Positions 51,792 to 60,482 of a stretch of 64,000 bases of DNA are shown here, piece after piece. The stretch comes from Streptomyces sp. SCL15-4 (lineage in GTDB: Bacteria > Actinomycetota > Actinomycetes > Streptomycetales > Streptomycetaceae). Positions within the stretch are counted from its first letter, which is position 1. Each line of letters opens with the position of its first letter. The notes below the pieces were generated by a model. That model made no database searches and was not told where the DNA came from. It worked only from the letters and a program-made list of their open reading frames with translations. The DNA is taken from NCBI RefSeq assembly GCF_033366695.1, contig NZ_JAOBTQ010000001.1:4960001-5024000 (forward strand). Direction: 5' to 3'. A program made the translations under genes and the position numbers.

Positions 51792-51802
51792 GGTGCAGGC
51801 GG

Positions 51803-51875
51803 CTCCCCCATCAGGATTTGAACCTGAACTTAAGGGACCAAAACCCTCAGTGCTGCCTAGTTACACCATGGGGGA
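51803..51875 (-). tRNA. tRNA-Gln (anticodon UUG)
   Basis: Cloverleaf read by eye on the minus strand. Acceptor stem TCCCCCA/TGGGGGA, D-arm GTGT...GCAC, anticodon stem GAGGG/CCCTT with loop TTTTGGT giving anticodon TTG, T-arm CAGG-TTCAAAT-CCTG, discriminator G. CCA is not encoded. It reads the rare CAA codon in this GC-rich genome. Confidence 0.93.
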
Positions 51876-54281: not shown

Positions 54282-54776
54282 TCAGCCGGCGGTGAGGCGT
54301 ACGGGCTGGATGCCGGTGACGAGGGTGGTCAGGGCGTGGTCGATGTCGGGGCCCGCGTACCAGTCGCCGGTGTGGTCGATGGTGTAGACGCGGCCTTCGG
54401 CGTCGATGGCGAGGAGGGCGGCGGTGTCGGTCTCCTCGCCGAGGGGGCACAGTTCGGTGCCGAGGGCGCGGCCGAGGTCGCCGAGGGTGCGGGCGAGGTG
54501 GAGGCCGTGCAGGGGGTCGAGGTGGAGGGCGGCGGGGGCGATCTGGCGGCCGGGGCCGGTGGGGGTGATGGTGAGGCCGCCGAATTCGGCCCAGGCCTCG
54601 ACGGCGGCGGGGAAGACGGTGTGCCGGTGTCCGGCGGGTGAGGTGTGGGCGCGCAGGGCGTCGGCCCAGATCTCGGCCTGCTTGATGTCCCAGCGTCCGG
54701 GTTGCCAGCCGGCGGCGCGCAGCGCGGCGTCGACGGGTACGGGGAAGCGCGTGGTGGACGTGCGGTCGGGGTGCAT
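54282..54776 (-). CDS. SUKH-3 domain immunity-like protein
   Basis: A 164-residue protein of the SUKH-3 family. Typical segments: ALRAAGWQPGR (start), AEIWADALR, AVEAWAEFGGLTI, LAIDAEGRVYTIDHTGDWYAG (the core beta-hairpin) and a closing helix. SUKH proteins often neutralise nucleic-acid-targeting toxins. It lies 74 nt downstream of a deaminase gene in the same direction, the arrangement expected for a toxin-immunity pair. Confidence 0.85.
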   Translation of the reverse strand: MHPDRTSTTRFPVPVDAALRAAGWQPGRWDIKQAEIWADALRAHTSPAGHRHTVFPAAVEAWAEFGGLTITPTGPGRQIAPAALHLDPLHGLHLARTLGDLGRALGTELCPLGEETDTAALLAIDAEGRVYTIDHTGDWYAGPDIDHALTTLVTGIQPVRLTAG

Positions 54777-54850
54777 CTGCCCTTCGTTCGTCGAGCTTGC
54801 CGGGTGGTCGGGGGCGGGGCGTGCCGGTGGGGGCTGGCGGGCGCGGGGGG

Positions 54851-55366
54851 TCAGCGGTCGGTCGCGGTGGGGTCGACGATGCGGACGCCGAAGTGGGCGC
54901 TGAGAGCGGTGCAGGCGCGGCAGGGGGCGGCGAAGCGGCCGTGCAGGGGGTCGCCGTCCTCGCGGATGCGGCGGGCGGTGAGTTTGGCGTGTTTGAGGGC
55001 TTTGCGGGCCTCGCCGTTGCTCATGGGCCTGCGGGCGGCGCGTTTGCTGCGGGCGGCGTCGGCGGTGGTGAGGTGCCGGGAGATGAGGATGGTTTCGGCG
55101 CAGCGGCCGGTGAAGCGGTCGCGCTGGGCGCTGGTGAGGGTGTCGAGGAAGTCCTGGACGAGGGGGTGCAGGGCGGGCGGCTGGTCGCCGCGGGCGGCGG
55201 TACAGGTGAGGGTGGTGCCGCGGACGGAGAGGGCGGCGGCGACGGTGGGCAGGATGCCGTCGCGGCGGTGCCGGAGGGTGGGAGTGGGAGGTGTCTCGGT
55301 GCCGCTCCAGTCGATGCGAGGGTCGCCGGCCCGCACGTCGGCACCTCCGGTCTGCACGGTGGTCAT
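54851..55366 (-). CDS. YwqJ-related deaminase-fold protein
   Basis: A 171-residue protein with zinc-deaminase motifs: GRCAETILISRHL (C-A-E in place of H-A-E) and PCRACTALSAHFGV (PCxxC), as in YwqJ-like members of the nucleic-acid deaminase superfamily. It should bind zinc and deaminate a base or nucleotide; the target is unknown. No signal peptide is visible, so it acts inside the cell unless exported otherwise. ATG 55366 follows GGGAGGG and is preferred to longer Pro-rich forms. It is transcribed with SUKH-3. Confidence 0.8.
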   Translation of the reverse strand: MTTVQTGGADVRAGDPRIDWSGTETPPTPTLRHRRDGILPTVAAALSVRGTTLTCTAARGDQPPALHPLVQDFLDTLTSAQRDRFTGRCAETILISRHLTTADAARSKRAARRPMSNGEARKALKHAKLTARRIREDGDPLHGRFAAPCRACTALSAHFGVRIVDPTATDR

Positions 55367-55666
55367 GATCGTTTCCCTCCCCTGGGGCATCCCCCCGAAG
55401 GACTTAGGGTGCCAAATGCCGTGGCTGGTGGGGAAGCTGGGGCGGTGCGACACGCCCGTTCCGGGGCGTGGCGTGACGGTGGGGTGACGGCTGGTCACGG
55501 TGGCGGGCGGTGGAGTGGGCGGTGGAGCGGGTGCGGTGGCGCGGGCAGAGGGCGCGCGGGGTCGTGGTGGGCCGGTGACCGGGGTTCGGGTACGGCATAG
55601 GCTGTCGCCATCCGCGATCGACACCGCCGCTTAAGGCCAGAGAGAACGCCGCAGGGGGCATCCGCC
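55367..55666. other. divergent promoter region of SUKH/deaminase cluster
   Basis: 300 nt between two divergent operons. It has one readable promoter (55575-55603, described separately) and GGTGG-rich sequence; no gene is seen. Confidence 0.5.
55575..55603 (+). promoter_or_regulatory. promoter of WHH-SUKH operon
   Basis: -35 GTGACC (55575-55580), 17-bp spacer, -10 TAGGCT (55598-55603); expected leader of about 57 nt before ATG 55667. Confidence 0.5.
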
Positions 55667-56692
55667 ATGACGACAGGTCGGCTCGGGCAGCGAGCCGCGC
55701 CGCCGAACGCGGCCTATGCCGGGCAGGTCGTGCACTTTCCGGATCCGGTCCGGGCGGCACGTCACCCGAGAGGGGTACGGGTCGATGAGCGCGGTTACCC
55801 CGATTTCTCGCCGTACGCGCGCGTGGCGGTGGAGATCGCCGAGCCGCCGGAGGGTTTCGGGGTCGACGAGTTGCGGCTGACGGACTACGTGTCGGCGAAC
55901 GCGGCGCTGGCGGCGACGGGGCACGAACTGTGGGACACGGTGCCGAATGTGGCGACGCCCCATGGCTGGACGTGGCATCACGTGGCGGGGACCCGGCGGC
56001 TGGAGTTGATCCCGGTCGAGGTGAAGGCGCTGCTGAGGCATCACGGTGGGGTCGCGACGGCGCCGGTGGACCACGCCAAGCGCGGGACGAGGCCGTTGCA
56101 GGAGTCGCGGCCGGCGCACTTCGGGCTGCCGAAGTCGGGCGTGGCGGTGACGGAGGCGCAGGTGCAGGGGATCGAGGAGGATCTGGGCTGTCGGCTGCCC
56201 GGCGCCTACCGCTCGTTCCTGAAGGCGGCGGGCGGCTGCGCGCCGGTCGGCACGGCGCTGGACGCGGGGCTGGGGTTGCTGGTGGACCAGCCGTTCTTCA
56301 CGGTGCGGGACGAGGCCGCGGTCAACGACCTGGTGTATGTGAACAAGTGTCTGCGCGACCATCTGACGAAGGATTATCTCGGGGTGGGCTTCGTGCAGGG
56401 CGGGCTGCTCGCGGTGAAGGCGAAGGGCGAGCGGGCCGGTTCGGTGTGGTTCTGCGCGTACGACGACGTGCGGGACGTGGACCCGTCGTGGTCGCCGGCG
56501 GAGCGGGTGGAGCGTCTGCTGCTGCCGTGCGGCGACGACTTCGACGCGTTCCTGTCCCGGCTGGCCGGCAGTCCGCCGGAGCTGGAGACGGTGGCCGGTC
56601 TGATGGTGGACGGCGGTTTCGTCCGGGTCGTCCCGGTGTCTGCCGGTCCGGTGTCTGCCGGTCCTGTGTCTTCCGGTCCGGTGGGGGAGTGA
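55667..56692 (+). CDS. WHH nuclease-like domain fused to SMI1/KNR4 (SUKH) domain
   Basis: A 341-residue two-domain protein. The N-terminal 140 residues resemble the WHH subgroup of HNH/Endo VII nucleases: GYPDFSPYA, TGHELWDTV, then the core HGWTWHHVAG-RRLELIPVEV and closing RHHGGVATA. Residues about 165-315 form a SUKH/SMI1 domain (VTEAQVQGIEEDLGCRLPGAYRSFL, GVGFVQGGLL, FCAYDDV). The tail repeats VSAGP three times from a 15-bp DNA repeat at about 56635-56680. Joining a toxin-type nuclease to an immunity-type fold in one chain is unusual. The next gene starts 10 nt downstream. Confidence 0.8.
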   Translation: MTTGRLGQRAAPPNAAYAGQVVHFPDPVRAARHPRGVRVDERGYPDFSPYARVAVEIAEPPEGFGVDELRLTDYVSANAALAATGHELWDTVPNVATPHGWTWHHVAGTRRLELIPVEVKALLRHHGGVATAPVDHAKRGTRPLQESRPAHFGLPKSGVAVTEAQVQGIEEDLGCRLPGAYRSFLKAAGGCAPVGTALDAGLGLLVDQPFFTVRDEAAVNDLVYVNKCLRDHLTKDYLGVGFVQGGLLAVKAKGERAGSVWFCAYDDVRDVDPSWSPAERVERLLLPCGDDFDAFLSRLAGSPPELETVAGLMVDGGFVRVVPVSAGPVSAGPVSSGPVGE

Positions 56693-56702
56693 GCTGCACG
56701 CG

Positions 56703-59411
56703 ATGGTGACGTACGCGCAGGCGCAGGAGCGCGCCGAGGAGTGGATCAACGGCGACGTGCCCGTGTACCAGCACCGTGAGGTGCGGGTGCGGGAGTTCGA
56801 GCTGGGGTTCGTGGTGTGGGGCGAGGACCGGGCGGAGGGCCCGCGTTCGGACGCGGGCGGCCAGCGGCTCGTGATCGCCCGGGACAGCGGGGAGGCCACG
56901 TTGTGGCCCGCGCTGCCGGTGGGCGAGGTGATCCGCCGGTACGAGGAGGAGTACGGCCGCGCCGGCGAGCCGCGAGACGCGGTCGCGGCGCCGGCGCGGC
57001 TGGACCTCAACCAGACGTCGTTCCTGCTGACTCCTCCGGAGTGGTTGCAGGAGGCGGCGGACAAACTGGGGCTCCCAGAGCGGCGGACGGGGGATTCGGC
57101 GGCCGGGAGCGGTCCGGCGGGTTCGGGGGCGCCGGAGCCGGCTTCGGCGGAGACGGGCGGTGGTGCGGGGGCTTCCTCCGGCGGAGGAGGACCGGCCGAG
57201 ACGCAGGCCGGGGTGCCGGCGGGTGCGTCCGGCGTGCCGGGGGCGTCCGCTTTCGCGGAGGCGCCCGTGGGGGCCACGCCGTGGGCCGGGACCGACACGA
57301 ACGGCGGGTCCGGTGAGGACGACCGGTCCGTGCCGCTGCCCGCGACGGTGTTCGCGCCGCCGCTGAGCGACCCGGACGACGCGCCGCGTTCCCCGGCGGT
57401 GCCGGCGGACGCGCCGACGGCGTTGATGGCGGGCGGCAGCCAGTTGCCGCCGACGGCGGTCGCACCGGCGCTGGACGCCTCGGCCACCCCGGGCGCACCC
57501 GCCGCCGGTCCGGGCGACACGCCGCCGCCGGCAGCGGGCGCGTCGGCGTACGGCCATCCGCACCCGCAGCCTCCTGCGGCCCCGGACATGCCCGGGCCGG
57601 GCGTCCCGCCGCACCCTTCGGCGCACGGCACTCCGCCACCGGCACCGGCTCCGCCACCGCCACCGGCTCCGTCGTACGGCTATCCGCAGGGGCCGGGCGG
57701 CGCTCCGGGTGTGCCGCAGCCTCCGGTGGGCTCGGGTTCGGGTACGGCCGGACGGGCTCTTCCGCCGCACGCGGGGGACATCGCGGACGCCGCGACGAGC
57801 AAGGCGGCGCCGCCGCCGAAGAAGGGGCGCGGAGGAGCGGGCGCGCCGCCTCCGCCTCCGCCGCCGGGCGCTCCTGGCGTGCCGGGCGCGCGCCCGGGTG
57901 GTGCGACGCCGCCGCCCGCGCCGGGTGGCCCCGCGGGCGGGTACGTGCCGACCCAGCTGGTGTCGGCGCTCGGGCCGGAGGGTCCCGAGGGGCCGTCCGG
58001 TCCGGGAAGCGCGCAGGGAGCGCGGCCGCCGGGCGCGCCGAACCCGCCCGCCACGCCCCCGGGCAGTGTGCACCAGGCGGCCACGATGCTGGCCGACCCG
58101 AGCGGACCGGCCGCAGGCGCACCACAGCCTCCGGCGGCCCCGGGCGCGCCGCAGCCTCCCGGGACACCCCAGGCACCCCAGGCACCTCACGTCCCGAACG
58201 CTCCCGGTGCTCCCGGCGCCATGCACCACGCCGAGACCATGTTCGCCGCACCCCCGGCGGCCGGCCCGAACGCCGCGCCGCCGCCTCCGCCCGCCCCCGG
58301 TGCTCCCGGTGTGCCGCCGGGCGTGCCGGGCGTGCCGCCGCCGATGCCGCCCGGTGCGATGCCGCCGCCGGGCGCGCCCGTGCCGGGACACGGACCGGGG
58401 CTTGGGCAGGGACAGGCGTACGGGTATCCGCAGGGGCAGCCGACGGTGGGTCCCGGCTATCAGGCCGTCCTGCGCTACCGAGCGCAGGACGGGTCCGAGC
58501 AGCAGCTGATCCGGCGTTCGGCGCCGGGTGTGCCGCACCCGGAGTGGCAGATCTTCCACGAGCTGCGGGCCATGAACGTGCCGCCGGACCAGGTGCTGGA
58601 GCTGCACACCGAGCTGGAGTCGTGCGAGCTGCCGGGTGCCTACTGCGCGCGGATGATCCGCGAGCAGTGGCCGCAGGCGCGGATCACGAGCATCGCGCCG
58701 TACGGCACGGACCACGCGGGCCGGCGGCAGGGCATGCACCAGTTGCTGGCGCATCAGGGCGAGTTGCACCAGGTGGCGGACGGTCCCGCGCGGCCGGCGC
58801 CGGTGCGGGCGCCGCTCCCGCCGGTGCAGGCCGCGCCGCCGGTGCCGCCGGAGGCGGTCGCGCAGGAGCTGGCGGCGGCGTTCGGGCCGGGGATCTTCCG
58901 GTTCGAGCAGCAGGCGGTGTCCCGGCAGGGCGTGCCGCCGATCGTGGCCCACACCCTGGTCGTGGCCGGGCTCCCGCTGGACATGGGTCCGTTCTTCTGG
59001 GCGCAGGCGCAGCCGGGCCGTCCGGTGCCGACGCTGGCGGAGCTGGCGGCCGAGCGCGGGGTGGCGGCGGCGCCGGACGCGGGCTCGTACCTGGTGATGG
59101 GCACCGACTTCGGCAAGGCGCTCTGCGTGCAGTACGGGACGGCGAACATCGTGGCCGTGCCGGTGGAGGCGGGTCCGGGCGGTGCGCCGGTGCCGCCGCA
59201 GTTCGTGAACACCGGACTGCCGGAGTTCGCGCGCTGCCTGGCGCTGCTGGGCCGGATGTGGCGTCTGCGGTACGGGCTGAACCAGGAGCAGGCGGGTCGC
59301 TGGACCGTCGACTTCCAGGCGCAGCTGGCCGCGCTGGACCCGGCGGCGCTCGGTTCGCCGGAGAGCTGGTGGTCGGTGCTGCTGGAGCAGATGTGGGACG
59401 GGCTGTTGTAG
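56703..59411 (+). CDS. Imm35-like + Pro-rich linker + deaminase-like + SUKH-4-like protein
   Basis: A 902-residue multidomain protein. Residues 1-85 match an Imm35/YrhB-like domain (TYAQAQERAEEWINGD, LVIARDSGEATLWPALPVGEVI). About 110-580 is a long Pro/Gly/Ala disordered linker. About 585-690 looks like a nucleic-acid deaminase domain (HPEWQIFHELRAMNV, then ESCELPGAYCARMI as the zinc-site pair). The last 180 residues match SUKH-4 (FWAQAQPGRPVPTLAEL, YLVMGTDFGKALCVQYG, and the SWWSVLLEQMWDGLL end). No signal peptide or TM segment is visible. It is co-transcribed with the WHH-SUKH gene. Catalytic activity is unproven. Confidence 0.8.
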   Translation: MVTYAQAQERAEEWINGDVPVYQHREVRVREFELGFVVWGEDRAEGPRSDAGGQRLVIARDSGEATLWPALPVGEVIRRYEEEYGRAGEPRDAVAAPARLDLNQTSFLLTPPEWLQEAADKLGLPERRTGDSAAGSGPAGSGAPEPASAETGGGAGASSGGGGPAETQAGVPAGASGVPGASAFAEAPVGATPWAGTDTNGGSGEDDRSVPLPATVFAPPLSDPDDAPRSPAVPADAPTALMAGGSQLPPTAVAPALDASATPGAPAAGPGDTPPPAAGASAYGHPHPQPPAAPDMPGPGVPPHPSAHGTPPPAPAPPPPPAPSYGYPQGPGGAPGVPQPPVGSGSGTAGRALPPHAGDIADAATSKAAPPPKKGRGGAGAPPPPPPPGAPGVPGARPGGATPPPAPGGPAGGYVPTQLVSALGPEGPEGPSGPGSAQGARPPGAPNPPATPPGSVHQAATMLADPSGPAAGAPQPPAAPGAPQPPGTPQAPQAPHVPNAPGAPGAMHHAETMFAAPPAAGPNAAPPPPPAPGAPGVPPGVPGVPPPMPPGAMPPPGAPVPGHGPGLGQGQAYGYPQGQPTVGPGYQAVLRYRAQDGSEQQLIRRSAPGVPHPEWQIFHELRAMNVPPDQVLELHTELESCELPGAYCARMIREQWPQARITSIAPYGTDHAGRRQGMHQLLAHQGELHQVADGPARPAPVRAPLPPVQAAPPVPPEAVAQELAAAFGPGIFRFEQQAVSRQGVPPIVAHTLVVAGLPLDMGPFFWAQAQPGRPVPTLAELAAERGVAAAPDAGSYLVMGTDFGKALCVQYGTANIVAVPVEAGPGGAPVPPQFVNTGLPEFARCLALLGRMWRLRYGLNQEQAGRWTVDFQAQLAALDPAALGSPESWWSVLLEQMWDGLL

Positions 59412-59480: not shown

Positions 59481-59596
59481 CGTTGCGGGGCCCGTGACGG
59501 CCTGCGGAGTGTCGCGTTATGAACGATTACGCCCGATCCATCAAGATATGCACGAAATCATTCTGTCGTGTAGGTCCGGTGGAGAGGAGTCCCAGG

Positions 59597-60482
59597 GTGA
59601 GCAGCGCATCGATGCCACCGCACGGCTTCGCGACCGTCCGGGGGCGCGGCTACCGCCCCGACCAGGTCGACGCCTGCCTCCAGGCGCTGTCCGGGGACCG
59701 GGACGCGGCCTGGGAGCGGGCCGCCCGGCTGACCGTGCTCGCCAAGGACATGGAGGCCGAGGCGGTACGGCTGCGCGAGGTCGTCGCCCAGCTCGAACCG
59801 CAGACGTACGAGACGCTGGGGGAGGGTGCGCAGCGGCTGTTCCAGCGGGTGCAGAACGAGGCGGCGGACCTCACGGAGCGCGCCCGGCGCGCGGCCGGGC
59901 AGCAGGTCGCGCGGGCCGAGGCGGACGCCGAGGGTCCGCCGGGAGGCGCGGGAGGCGGCGGACGCCGTCCGCGCGGCGGCCGACGAGCACGCGCGGGGCC
60001 GCATCCTGGCCGCGCGCGCCGAGGCCAACGGCATCCGGGTCGGGGCCCGGCGGGAGGTGCGGGCGGCGCGCATGGAGGCGCTCGCCGTGGTGCGCGAGGC
60101 GCGGCAGCGCGCCGCCGGGACGCTCGCCGAGAACTCCCGGCGCAACGCCGGCCGCTGGGCGGCGGCCGAACGTGAGGAGGCCGAGCGGGCGGCGGCGCTG
60201 GACGCCCGGAACGCCGAGCGGGCGGACCGGGCCGAGGCGGCGCTGGCGGAGGCCGAGCGGGCGCTGCGGGAAGCCGGGAAGTACGCCCGGCGGTGCGAGG
60301 AGGAGGCACGCGCGCGTGCCGCCGAGATCGTCGCCGAGGCGCGCGTGCGCGAGGAGCGCATCGCCCAGGAGACCGAACGGGTGCTGCGCGAGCACGGTGA
60401 AACCTGGGACGACGTCCAGGCGCACGTGGACTGCGCGCGCGACCGCCTGATGGCGCTGACCGGCAAGGTGGCCGGCGAGTAG
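59597..60482 (+). pseudogene. frameshifted DivIVA-like coiled-coil (cellulose-binding protein type)
   Basis: The start (GTG 59597 behind GGAGAGGAG) reads MPPHGFATVRGRGYRPDQVDACLQ, the DivIVA-like membrane/curvature motif of Streptomyces proteins often labelled cellulose-binding protein. Long Ala/Glu/Arg coiled coil follows. At about 59933 the coding pattern jumps to the +1 frame (extra G after GAG, or loss of two bases), after which the coiled coil continues to a TAG at 60480-60482. The first frame alone ends at 60175 with a non-helical Gly/Arg tail. Either a real frameshift mutation, a sequencing error in a G-rich run, or programmed frameshifting explains it. Confidence 0.75.

Follow-up and report, generated by a model that had tools for sequence, protein, structure and literature searches.

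The described systems closest to the locus reported here are polymorphic toxin systems with SUKH immunity proteins. A survey of these systems (PMC3482391) already describes, in its consulted portions, all of the Pfam-named domain families that we discuss, gives toxin-then-immunity gene order as the rule, pairs SUKH immunity proteins in a table with WHH, YwqJ and XOO2897 toxins, and records occasional fusions of SUKH domains to toxins such as Tox-GHH. The locus is a cluster of four genes, g1 to g4, at positions 54,282 to 59,411 of a 64,000-nucleotide stretch of Streptomyces sp. SCL15-4 (contig NZ_JAOBTQ010000001.1, positions 4,960,001 to 5,024,000; hereafter the window). It has the domain families, the toxin/SUKH pairings and the toxin-then-immunity order in common with the surveyed systems, but it differs from them in having no export module, in fusing the immunity domain in cis in two pairs, in being core and vertical, and in showing no toxin-tip exchange in 76 of the 80 loci compared. 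In the open-licence literature that was searched, including the consulted portions of PMC3482391, PMC4255298 and PMC7159879, no description of the cluster was found.

What we observe are the domains, their pairings and order, their conservation, the metal-site residues and the absence of recognisable export features. The reading that we favour, plausible though short of probable, is that three cognate toxin/immunity pairs were captured early in the Streptomycetaceae without export modules, and that they are now fixed, self-inhibited intracellular enzymes which a signal would free to kill or silence hyphal compartments.

Domains were called by a Pfam profile search of the four proteins, and every named family scored above its curated cut-off (Table 1). 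An earlier note, made from the sequence alone, had placed a SUKH-3 protein and a YwqJ-like deaminase on the minus strand and a WHH-SUKH fusion on the plus strand. These assignments hold; g3 carries matches to WHH (E 9e-15), Colicin-DNase (E 1e-10) and SMI1_KNR4/SUKH-1 (E 1.5e-11) in a single chain. The note's description of g4 as an Imm35-deaminase-SUKH-4 protein stands for the deaminase and the SUKH-4 domain and falls for Imm35, the one family among the profile searches that it had proposed (SUKH, WHH, deaminase, Imm35) to give no match. With the g2 start chosen by eye at the ATG at 55366, which has GGGAGG just 5' of it, the two operons diverge from the 300-bp common promoter region that it had described. 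The note had also remarked that immunity folds are joined to toxin folds, which is the case in g3 and g4, the Imm35 part excepted; g2 and g1 are separate here. No NCBIfam profile matched any of the four proteins at E≤1. A sequence search of the PDB gave only a weak Rhs nuclease lead with g3 (8bd1, E 0.011) and no useful match with g4.

The cluster holds three toxin-type enzymes, each with a different SUKH class and in toxin-then-immunity order: WHH/SUKH-1, XOO_2897/SUKH-4 and YwqJ/SUKH-3. The first two are one chain each, and the third is a pair of neighbouring genes in the window strain. In three divergent Streptomyces loci (L073, L074 and L088) the YwqJ deaminase and SUKH-3 form one open reading frame, and in one genome (G012) the pair is located elsewhere on the chromosome, relocated as a unit. 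Such fusions may be mentioned in the 2011 SUKH-family and deaminase-family papers of the group that produced the polymorphic-toxin survey.

The same pairings, verified with Pfam, occur outside the core locus. In Paraburkholderia and Sagittula a WHH nuclease gene homologous to g3 (25-35% identity) is followed by a SUKH-1 (SMI1/KNR4) gene; unlike in g3, nuclease and SUKH-1 are encoded separately, with secretion-related genes close by. In Paraburkholderia a filamentous hemagglutinin gene lies about 1.5 kb away, and in Sagittula the pair sits among genes for VgrG and PAAR of a type VI secretion system (T6SS). A Streptomyces plasmid (L222) encodes WXG100-YwqJ then SUKH-3 and, after them, YwqJ then SUKH-3, the order seen in g2-g1, although these pairs are plasmid-borne and in tandem, have WXG100 on the first toxin and share 38% identity over 74% of g2. 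Another (L223) encodes an XOO_2897 deaminase then SUKH-4, as does g4, but as separate genes with WXG100 on the toxin. Because identical pairings occur elsewhere as toxin-then-immunity genes, in keeping with the table and order rule of the survey (PMC3482391, consulted portions), the SUKH domains of the cluster are most simply taken as cognate inhibitors of their enzymes. In this the cluster would resemble type II toxin-antitoxin systems, with an intracellular toxin held by a partner protein; it is unlike them in that the inhibitor-type domain is fused to the enzyme in two of the three pairs and in that Pfam found no DNA-binding domain. A further WHH-SUKH-1 fusion, with 37% identity to g3 and the WHH residues retained, is encoded at L214:5001-5927 on a 1.6-Mb Streptomyces replicon.

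The cluster is close to universal in Streptomyces. Among 150 genomes, matches were found to g1 (SUKH-3) in 144, to g3 in 141 and to the C-terminal 343 amino acids of g4 in 142, three of these last being weak or partial (a paralogue-like match of 36% identity in G001, and pieces in G008 and G102). In 64 of the 66 genomes with at most ten contigs, that of the window (G000) aside, g1, g3 and g4 lie within ∼7 kb on one contig, contig numbers and co-location having been read by eye from the match tables. The exceptions are G012, where g1 has moved, and G010, where g4 falls in a run of N; G082 has g3 in two pieces. A loss of g4 from the two-contig genome G010 was rejected, since the stretch reads N. 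The remaining absences of g1, g3 or g4 are, by eye, all in assemblies of at least 60 contigs. The g2 gene is present in 77 of 80 fetched loci, a count biased by the picking of loci through g3 and g4 matches.

These 80 loci comprise 60 from Streptomyces, picked by g3 or g4 matches, and 20 from other genera of the family, picked by g4 matches. Order and strands (g1<g2<g3>g4>) are unchanged in 76, and the four that deviate are explained by a move of the pair (L071), masking by a run of N (L094), cut-off at a contig end (L102) and a fetch limit that leaves g1 and g2 outside the stretch (L108); no exchange of toxin/immunity cassettes was seen in any of the 80. Identity to the window correlates with that of the flanking histidine kinase (Spearman 0.91-0.95; 66-67 of the 80 loci, with the kinase aligned over more than 300 residues), the pattern expected for vertical inheritance.

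Beyond the genus, with g4 as the only query, matches were found in 197 of 200 Streptomycetaceae genomes (63 Streptomyces and 137 from 16 other genera) and in 16 of 17 genera. In one genus of four genomes they are weak (E about 1e-12 to 1e-15), and in two further genomes middling (E 2e-58 and 2e-78). A sample of the phylum (396 genomes, 236 genera) gave 12 g4 matches, all in the one genus Streptomyces, with five candidates scored per genome, so that distant relatives may be missed, and with other Streptomycetaceae possibly outside the sample. Relatives in 72,556 plasmid records number seven for g3, four for the C-terminal part of g4 and one for g2, all below 60% identity (g1 was not searched), and 50,697 phage records held no match to g3, the only gene searched there. 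One genome carries a second g4-type deaminase-SUKH-4 copy (L213, G012:C1:3757000-3770000) with 58-60% identity and with HxE and both cysteines retained.

All seven domain segments are under purifying selection. Ratios of nonsynonymous to synonymous substitution (dN/dS) were computed by the Nei-Gojobori method against the window for pairs with dS below 1 (68-79 pairs per domain); the medians are 0.17 for the nuclease and 0.22 for SUKH-1 in g3, and 0.19, 0.23 and 0.28 for the N-terminal domain, XOO deaminase and SUKH-4 of g4, values that are rough and probably too high because of the strong GC bias. Active-site residues are held more strictly. The CxE/CxxC zinc-type motif of g2 (C89, E91, C149, C152) is present in all 78 aligned rows, and in the g4 deaminase E78, C82 and C89 are present in 80/80 rows and H76 in 78/80, numbered within the 343-aa piece at 58380-59408; both deaminases, judged on their sequences, thus appear to combine profile matches with intact zinc-type motifs. 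In g3, residues W103, H104, H105, R111, L114, H125, H126 and G128 are kept in 80/80 rows. The Tox-WHH signature is given as WHH, L, H and HxG residues in the consulted portions of PMC3482391, and g3 has both the Tox-WHH profile match and this residue signature, with L114 assumed to be its L.

Accessory paralogues of g4 provide a comparison. We fetched six (L216-L221) of at least eight matches under 45% identity in the 150-genome g4 search; they share 32-38% identity over the deaminase-SUKH-4 part and lie at other Streptomyces loci, not at the core locus. Like g4 they join deaminase and SUKH-4 in one chain, and five of the six (L216, L217, L218, L220 and L221) have a g4-type N-terminal domain, albeit with a short linker. 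In these same five Asp replaces the Glu and both Cys are lost, while the deaminase profile is still matched; the sixth keeps Glu and both Cys and has Tyr for His. Since the deaminase fold persists without its site in the accessory proteins, the site at the core locus seems to be maintained for more than folding.

In 79 of 80 loci the N-terminal domain of g4 shows at least 57% identity to that of the window; the other locus ends before the domain is reached. It was modelled by AlphaFold 2 with a pLDDT of 85 and a pTM of 0.75, and the predicted order of elements, at fair confidence, is alpha-beta-beta-beta-beta-alpha plus a short helix. No clear PDB relative of the predicted domain was found, and 46 orthologous domains matched no Pfam family significantly. 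Imm35 was rejected for this domain, there being no Pfam match in the whole protein, the N-terminal piece or the 46 orthologous domains at a limit of E 10 (HMMER filters discard most matches above about 0.1). Across the whole genome the Imm35 profile finds four places, one over the cut-off and none at the cluster; that one (L128, G000:C1:1513841-1514107) lies far from the cluster, and an hhalign comparison of the g4 domain with this single sequence, a weak test, gave a probability of 0.2%.

Between this domain and the deaminase runs a linker of 279-667 residues, composed of 26% Pro, 18% Gly and 18% Ala in the 58 proteins with a placeable linker end, out of 69 intact orthologues and the window. 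The repeat (A/P)-x-T-(M/V)-(L/F)-A occurs 3.0 times per linker against 0.04 in shuffles, an optimistic contrast as the motif was defined after inspecting the sequences and a slightly looser pattern was used for the counts. The linker also carries short conserved islands; these and the motif could possibly be phosphorylation or binding sites. The g4 frame is broken between its ends in nine of 78 loci (L036, L043, L047, L059, L065, L072, L073, L075 and L112); these breaks are probably assembly errors in GC-rich repeats, slippage in the repeats being the alternative.

None of the four proteins has a strong hydrophobic leader or membrane segment (maximum 19-residue Kyte-Doolittle mean 0.90-1.48; hydropathy windows only), and Pfam finds no WXG100 or other trafficking domain in them. 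The flanking genes examined encode kinase, helix-turn-helix (HTH), coiled-coil, MFS and ABC proteins, with no protein-export gene among them. The locus lacks both an export domain or adjacent export genes and the interchangeable C-terminal cassettes of polymorphic toxins, and we class it on these grounds as a domesticated derivative of such systems. The plasmid relatives on L222 and L223, with WXG100 in front, give a picture of the exported form, and WXG100 is the domain that the core genes lack. No PADLOC-DB family matched the four proteins at E≤1. Defence islands are patchy in distribution; PglZ, with 0 hits in the same 150 genomes, gives no calibration of this patchiness. The near-universal and vertical pattern of the cluster speaks mildly for a physiological role, in hyphal cell death or under stress for example, and against phage defence of the usual patchy kind.

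The earlier note had proposed a domesticated, self-guarded, intracellular defence or nucleic-acid-editing system without secretion signals, and had called for a survey of conservation across Streptomyces. That survey finds the cluster near-universal, syntenic and vertical-looking, and with purifying selection and intact metal sites this agrees well with domestication. The lack of secretion signals is confirmed for hydrophobic leaders and Pfam export domains. Each toxin-type domain is coupled to the same SUKH class as its relatives in other settings, which suggests that the enzymes may indeed be self-guarded, and an intracellular location is supported negatively, by the want of a leader, membrane segment or Pfam export domain, whereas the plasmid relatives carry WXG100. 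Defence is not borne out, given the absence of a PADLOC match and a near-universal vertical inheritance unlike that of patchy defence islands, although the PglZ control (0/150) is uninformative. Nucleic-acid editing is not borne out either.

A simple scenario for the favoured reading is that an early member of the Streptomycetaceae captured WHH/SUKH-1, XOO_2897/SUKH-4 and YwqJ/SUKH-3 pairs minus their export modules, and that these became one fixed chromosomal locus. The enzymes would remain cytoplasmic, with a SUKH partner in cis or an adjacent subunit keeping each of them inactive, until a signal brought about release by proteolysis, phosphorylation or partner exchange; the g4 N-terminal domain, together with its long linker and the motifs in it, may be what senses this signal or passes it on. 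Once free, the enzymes would cleave and deaminate nucleic acids of the cell itself, the most likely outcome being that hyphal compartments are killed or silenced in development or severe stress. It is possible, if somewhat unlikely, that the locus is a three-enzyme execution module common to the Streptomycetaceae, whose nuclease and two deaminases, on SUKH catches, would be freed together in hyphal cell death and would break nucleic acids down or hypermutate them.

Several observations weigh against this scenario. Together the data point no more directly to development than to stress or infection. Over their last 110 bases, 72 intergenic regions were aligned: the window base of the CATAGGCTGT element is matched at all ten positions in at least 80% of the regions, and the leader CAGGGGGC in at least 95%; we take CATAGGCTGT, with its TAGGCT, to resemble a sigma-HrdB -10 box, and the resulting g3-g4 promoter, probably of vegetative type, fits poorly with tight developmental control. 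The g1 and g2 domains evolve faster than the rest (median dN/dS 0.41 for SUKH-3 and 0.46 for the YwqJ deaminase), and Tyr replaces H76, the first deaminase ligand of g4, in two core loci (L103 and L111). A structure prediction of g3 (AlphaFold, with an alignment of orthologues only) reached a pLDDT of 45, too poor to place SUKH on the active site. On plasmid L223 a gene neighbouring the WXG100 pair (L223:3467-4321) encodes a protein in which SUKH-4 precedes the XOO_2897 deaminase, opposite to g4, so the toxin-then-immunity order is not absolute. Finally, no g4 match was found in one genus (three genomes) of the 17 and the gene is unrecognisable in another, from which it follows that it is not essential to the family.

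Other explanations could account for parts of the data. Constitutive anti-phage abortive infection, in which infection would free the leashed nuclease and deaminases to attack nucleic acids of phage and host alike, destroying or mutating them, is unlikely, since the cluster has no PADLOC match, is near-universal, syntenic and vertical, unlike defence islands (a contrast that PglZ does not calibrate), and has few and distant plasmid relatives and no g3 match among phages. Toxin-type enzymes standing with inhibitor-type domains in divergent operons would nonetheless suit such a system, as would the statement, in the consulted portions of PMC7159879, that most reports of conflict systems come from multicellular prokaryotes. 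Purifying selection, core status and the want of a recognisable secretion module could reflect housekeeping, a regulated part in modifying, repairing or salvaging RNA or DNA without any killing, with the SUKH domains as ordinary regulatory or targeting modules; yet each enzyme keeps the SUKH class that its exported relatives are paired with, which is what a continuing need for inhibition would predict, and we regard the housekeeping reading as distinctly unlikely.

The SUKH halves might instead form an immunity reserve or decoy against incoming toxins of the same families, the fused enzymes merely stabilising them or acting as bait. SUKH proteins serve as immunity across many toxins (PMC3482391, consulted portions), on Streptomyces plasmids toxins from two of these families carry WXG100 and come with SUKH partners, and accessory paralogues in the genus have degenerate deaminase sites. 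This idea is very unlikely all the same, as the metal residues of the core locus, which a decoy would not need, are kept in 78 to 80 of the 80 rows (all 78 in g2), and the SUKH domains, instead of diversifying, show about the same conservation as the enzymes. Hardly credible is the suggestion that the proteins are secreted antibacterial toxins, cargo of a type VII secretion system (T7SS) or contractile injection system that carries its own immunity. A toxin that left the cell still joined to its own inhibitor would be expected to be inactive, and no Pfam trafficking domain, hydrophobic leader or export gene among the flanking genes examined speaks for export, even though the domain families are typical of exported toxins (again in the consulted portions of PMC3482391) and the plasmid relatives have WXG100 domains.

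Features of the locus are collected in Table 1. Just downstream, a conserved coiled-coil gene (59519-60482) is split into two overlapping frames in the window and is a single frame in all 78 loci that have both parts; the split is a frameshift or sequencing error in the window strain. A tRNA-Gln (TTG) gene (51801-51875) lies upstream of the genes that flank the cluster.

Table 1. Features of the four-gene cluster; positions are those of the window.
Feature	Position	Strand	Description	Pfam match
g1	54282-54776	-	SUKH-3 immunity-type protein, 164 aa; domain 54312-54746	PF14433, E 6.3e-61
g2	54851-55366	-	YwqJ-like deaminase, 171 aa from ATG 55366; domain 54887-55276	PF14431, E 3.5e-25
g2 ligand motif			C89-x-E91 and C149-x-x-C152, residues of the 171-aa protein	
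Intergenic region	55367-55666	.	300 bp, common to the divergent g2-g1 and g3-g4 operons	
CATAGGCTGT element	55596-55605	+	Putative -10 element (TAGGCT) of g3-g4 promoter	
Leader/ribosome-binding stretch GCAGGGGGCATCCGCC	55651-55666	+	Directly before g3 ATG	
g3	55667-56692	+	WHH/HNH nuclease fused to SUKH-1, 341 aa	PF14414, PF12639, PF09346
g3 segments	55946-56062; 56147-56557	+	WHH motif; SUKH-1	
g4	56703-59411	+	N-terminal alpha/beta domain, long Pro/Gly/Ala linker, XOO_2897 deaminase, SUKH-4; 902 aa	PF14440, PF14435
g4 N-terminal domain	56703-56966	+	Unnamed family, not Imm35 by Pfam	
g4 linker	56990-58440	+	Conserved islands and repeated motif in Pro/Gly/Ala-rich stretch	
g4 XOO_2897-like deaminase	58449-58751	+	H76-x-E78, C82, C89	E 9e-35
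g4 SUKH-4	58860-59390	+	SUKH-4 domain	PF14435, E 9.5e-47

Toxin domains of these kinds are normally traded between strains; this locus holds three that have become fixtures of the core genome in most of a family and have kept their active-site residues. Should they be active, they would amount either to a killing or editing programme built into multicellular bacteria or to a defence shared across the family. An execution module, if that is what the locus encodes, would be a bacterial parallel to the toxin-derived deaminases and nucleases recruited into eukaryotic cell death and immunity. The locus offers toxin/inhibitor proteins in single chains, in which release can be studied directly, and its two uncharacterised deaminases may be potential editing tools.

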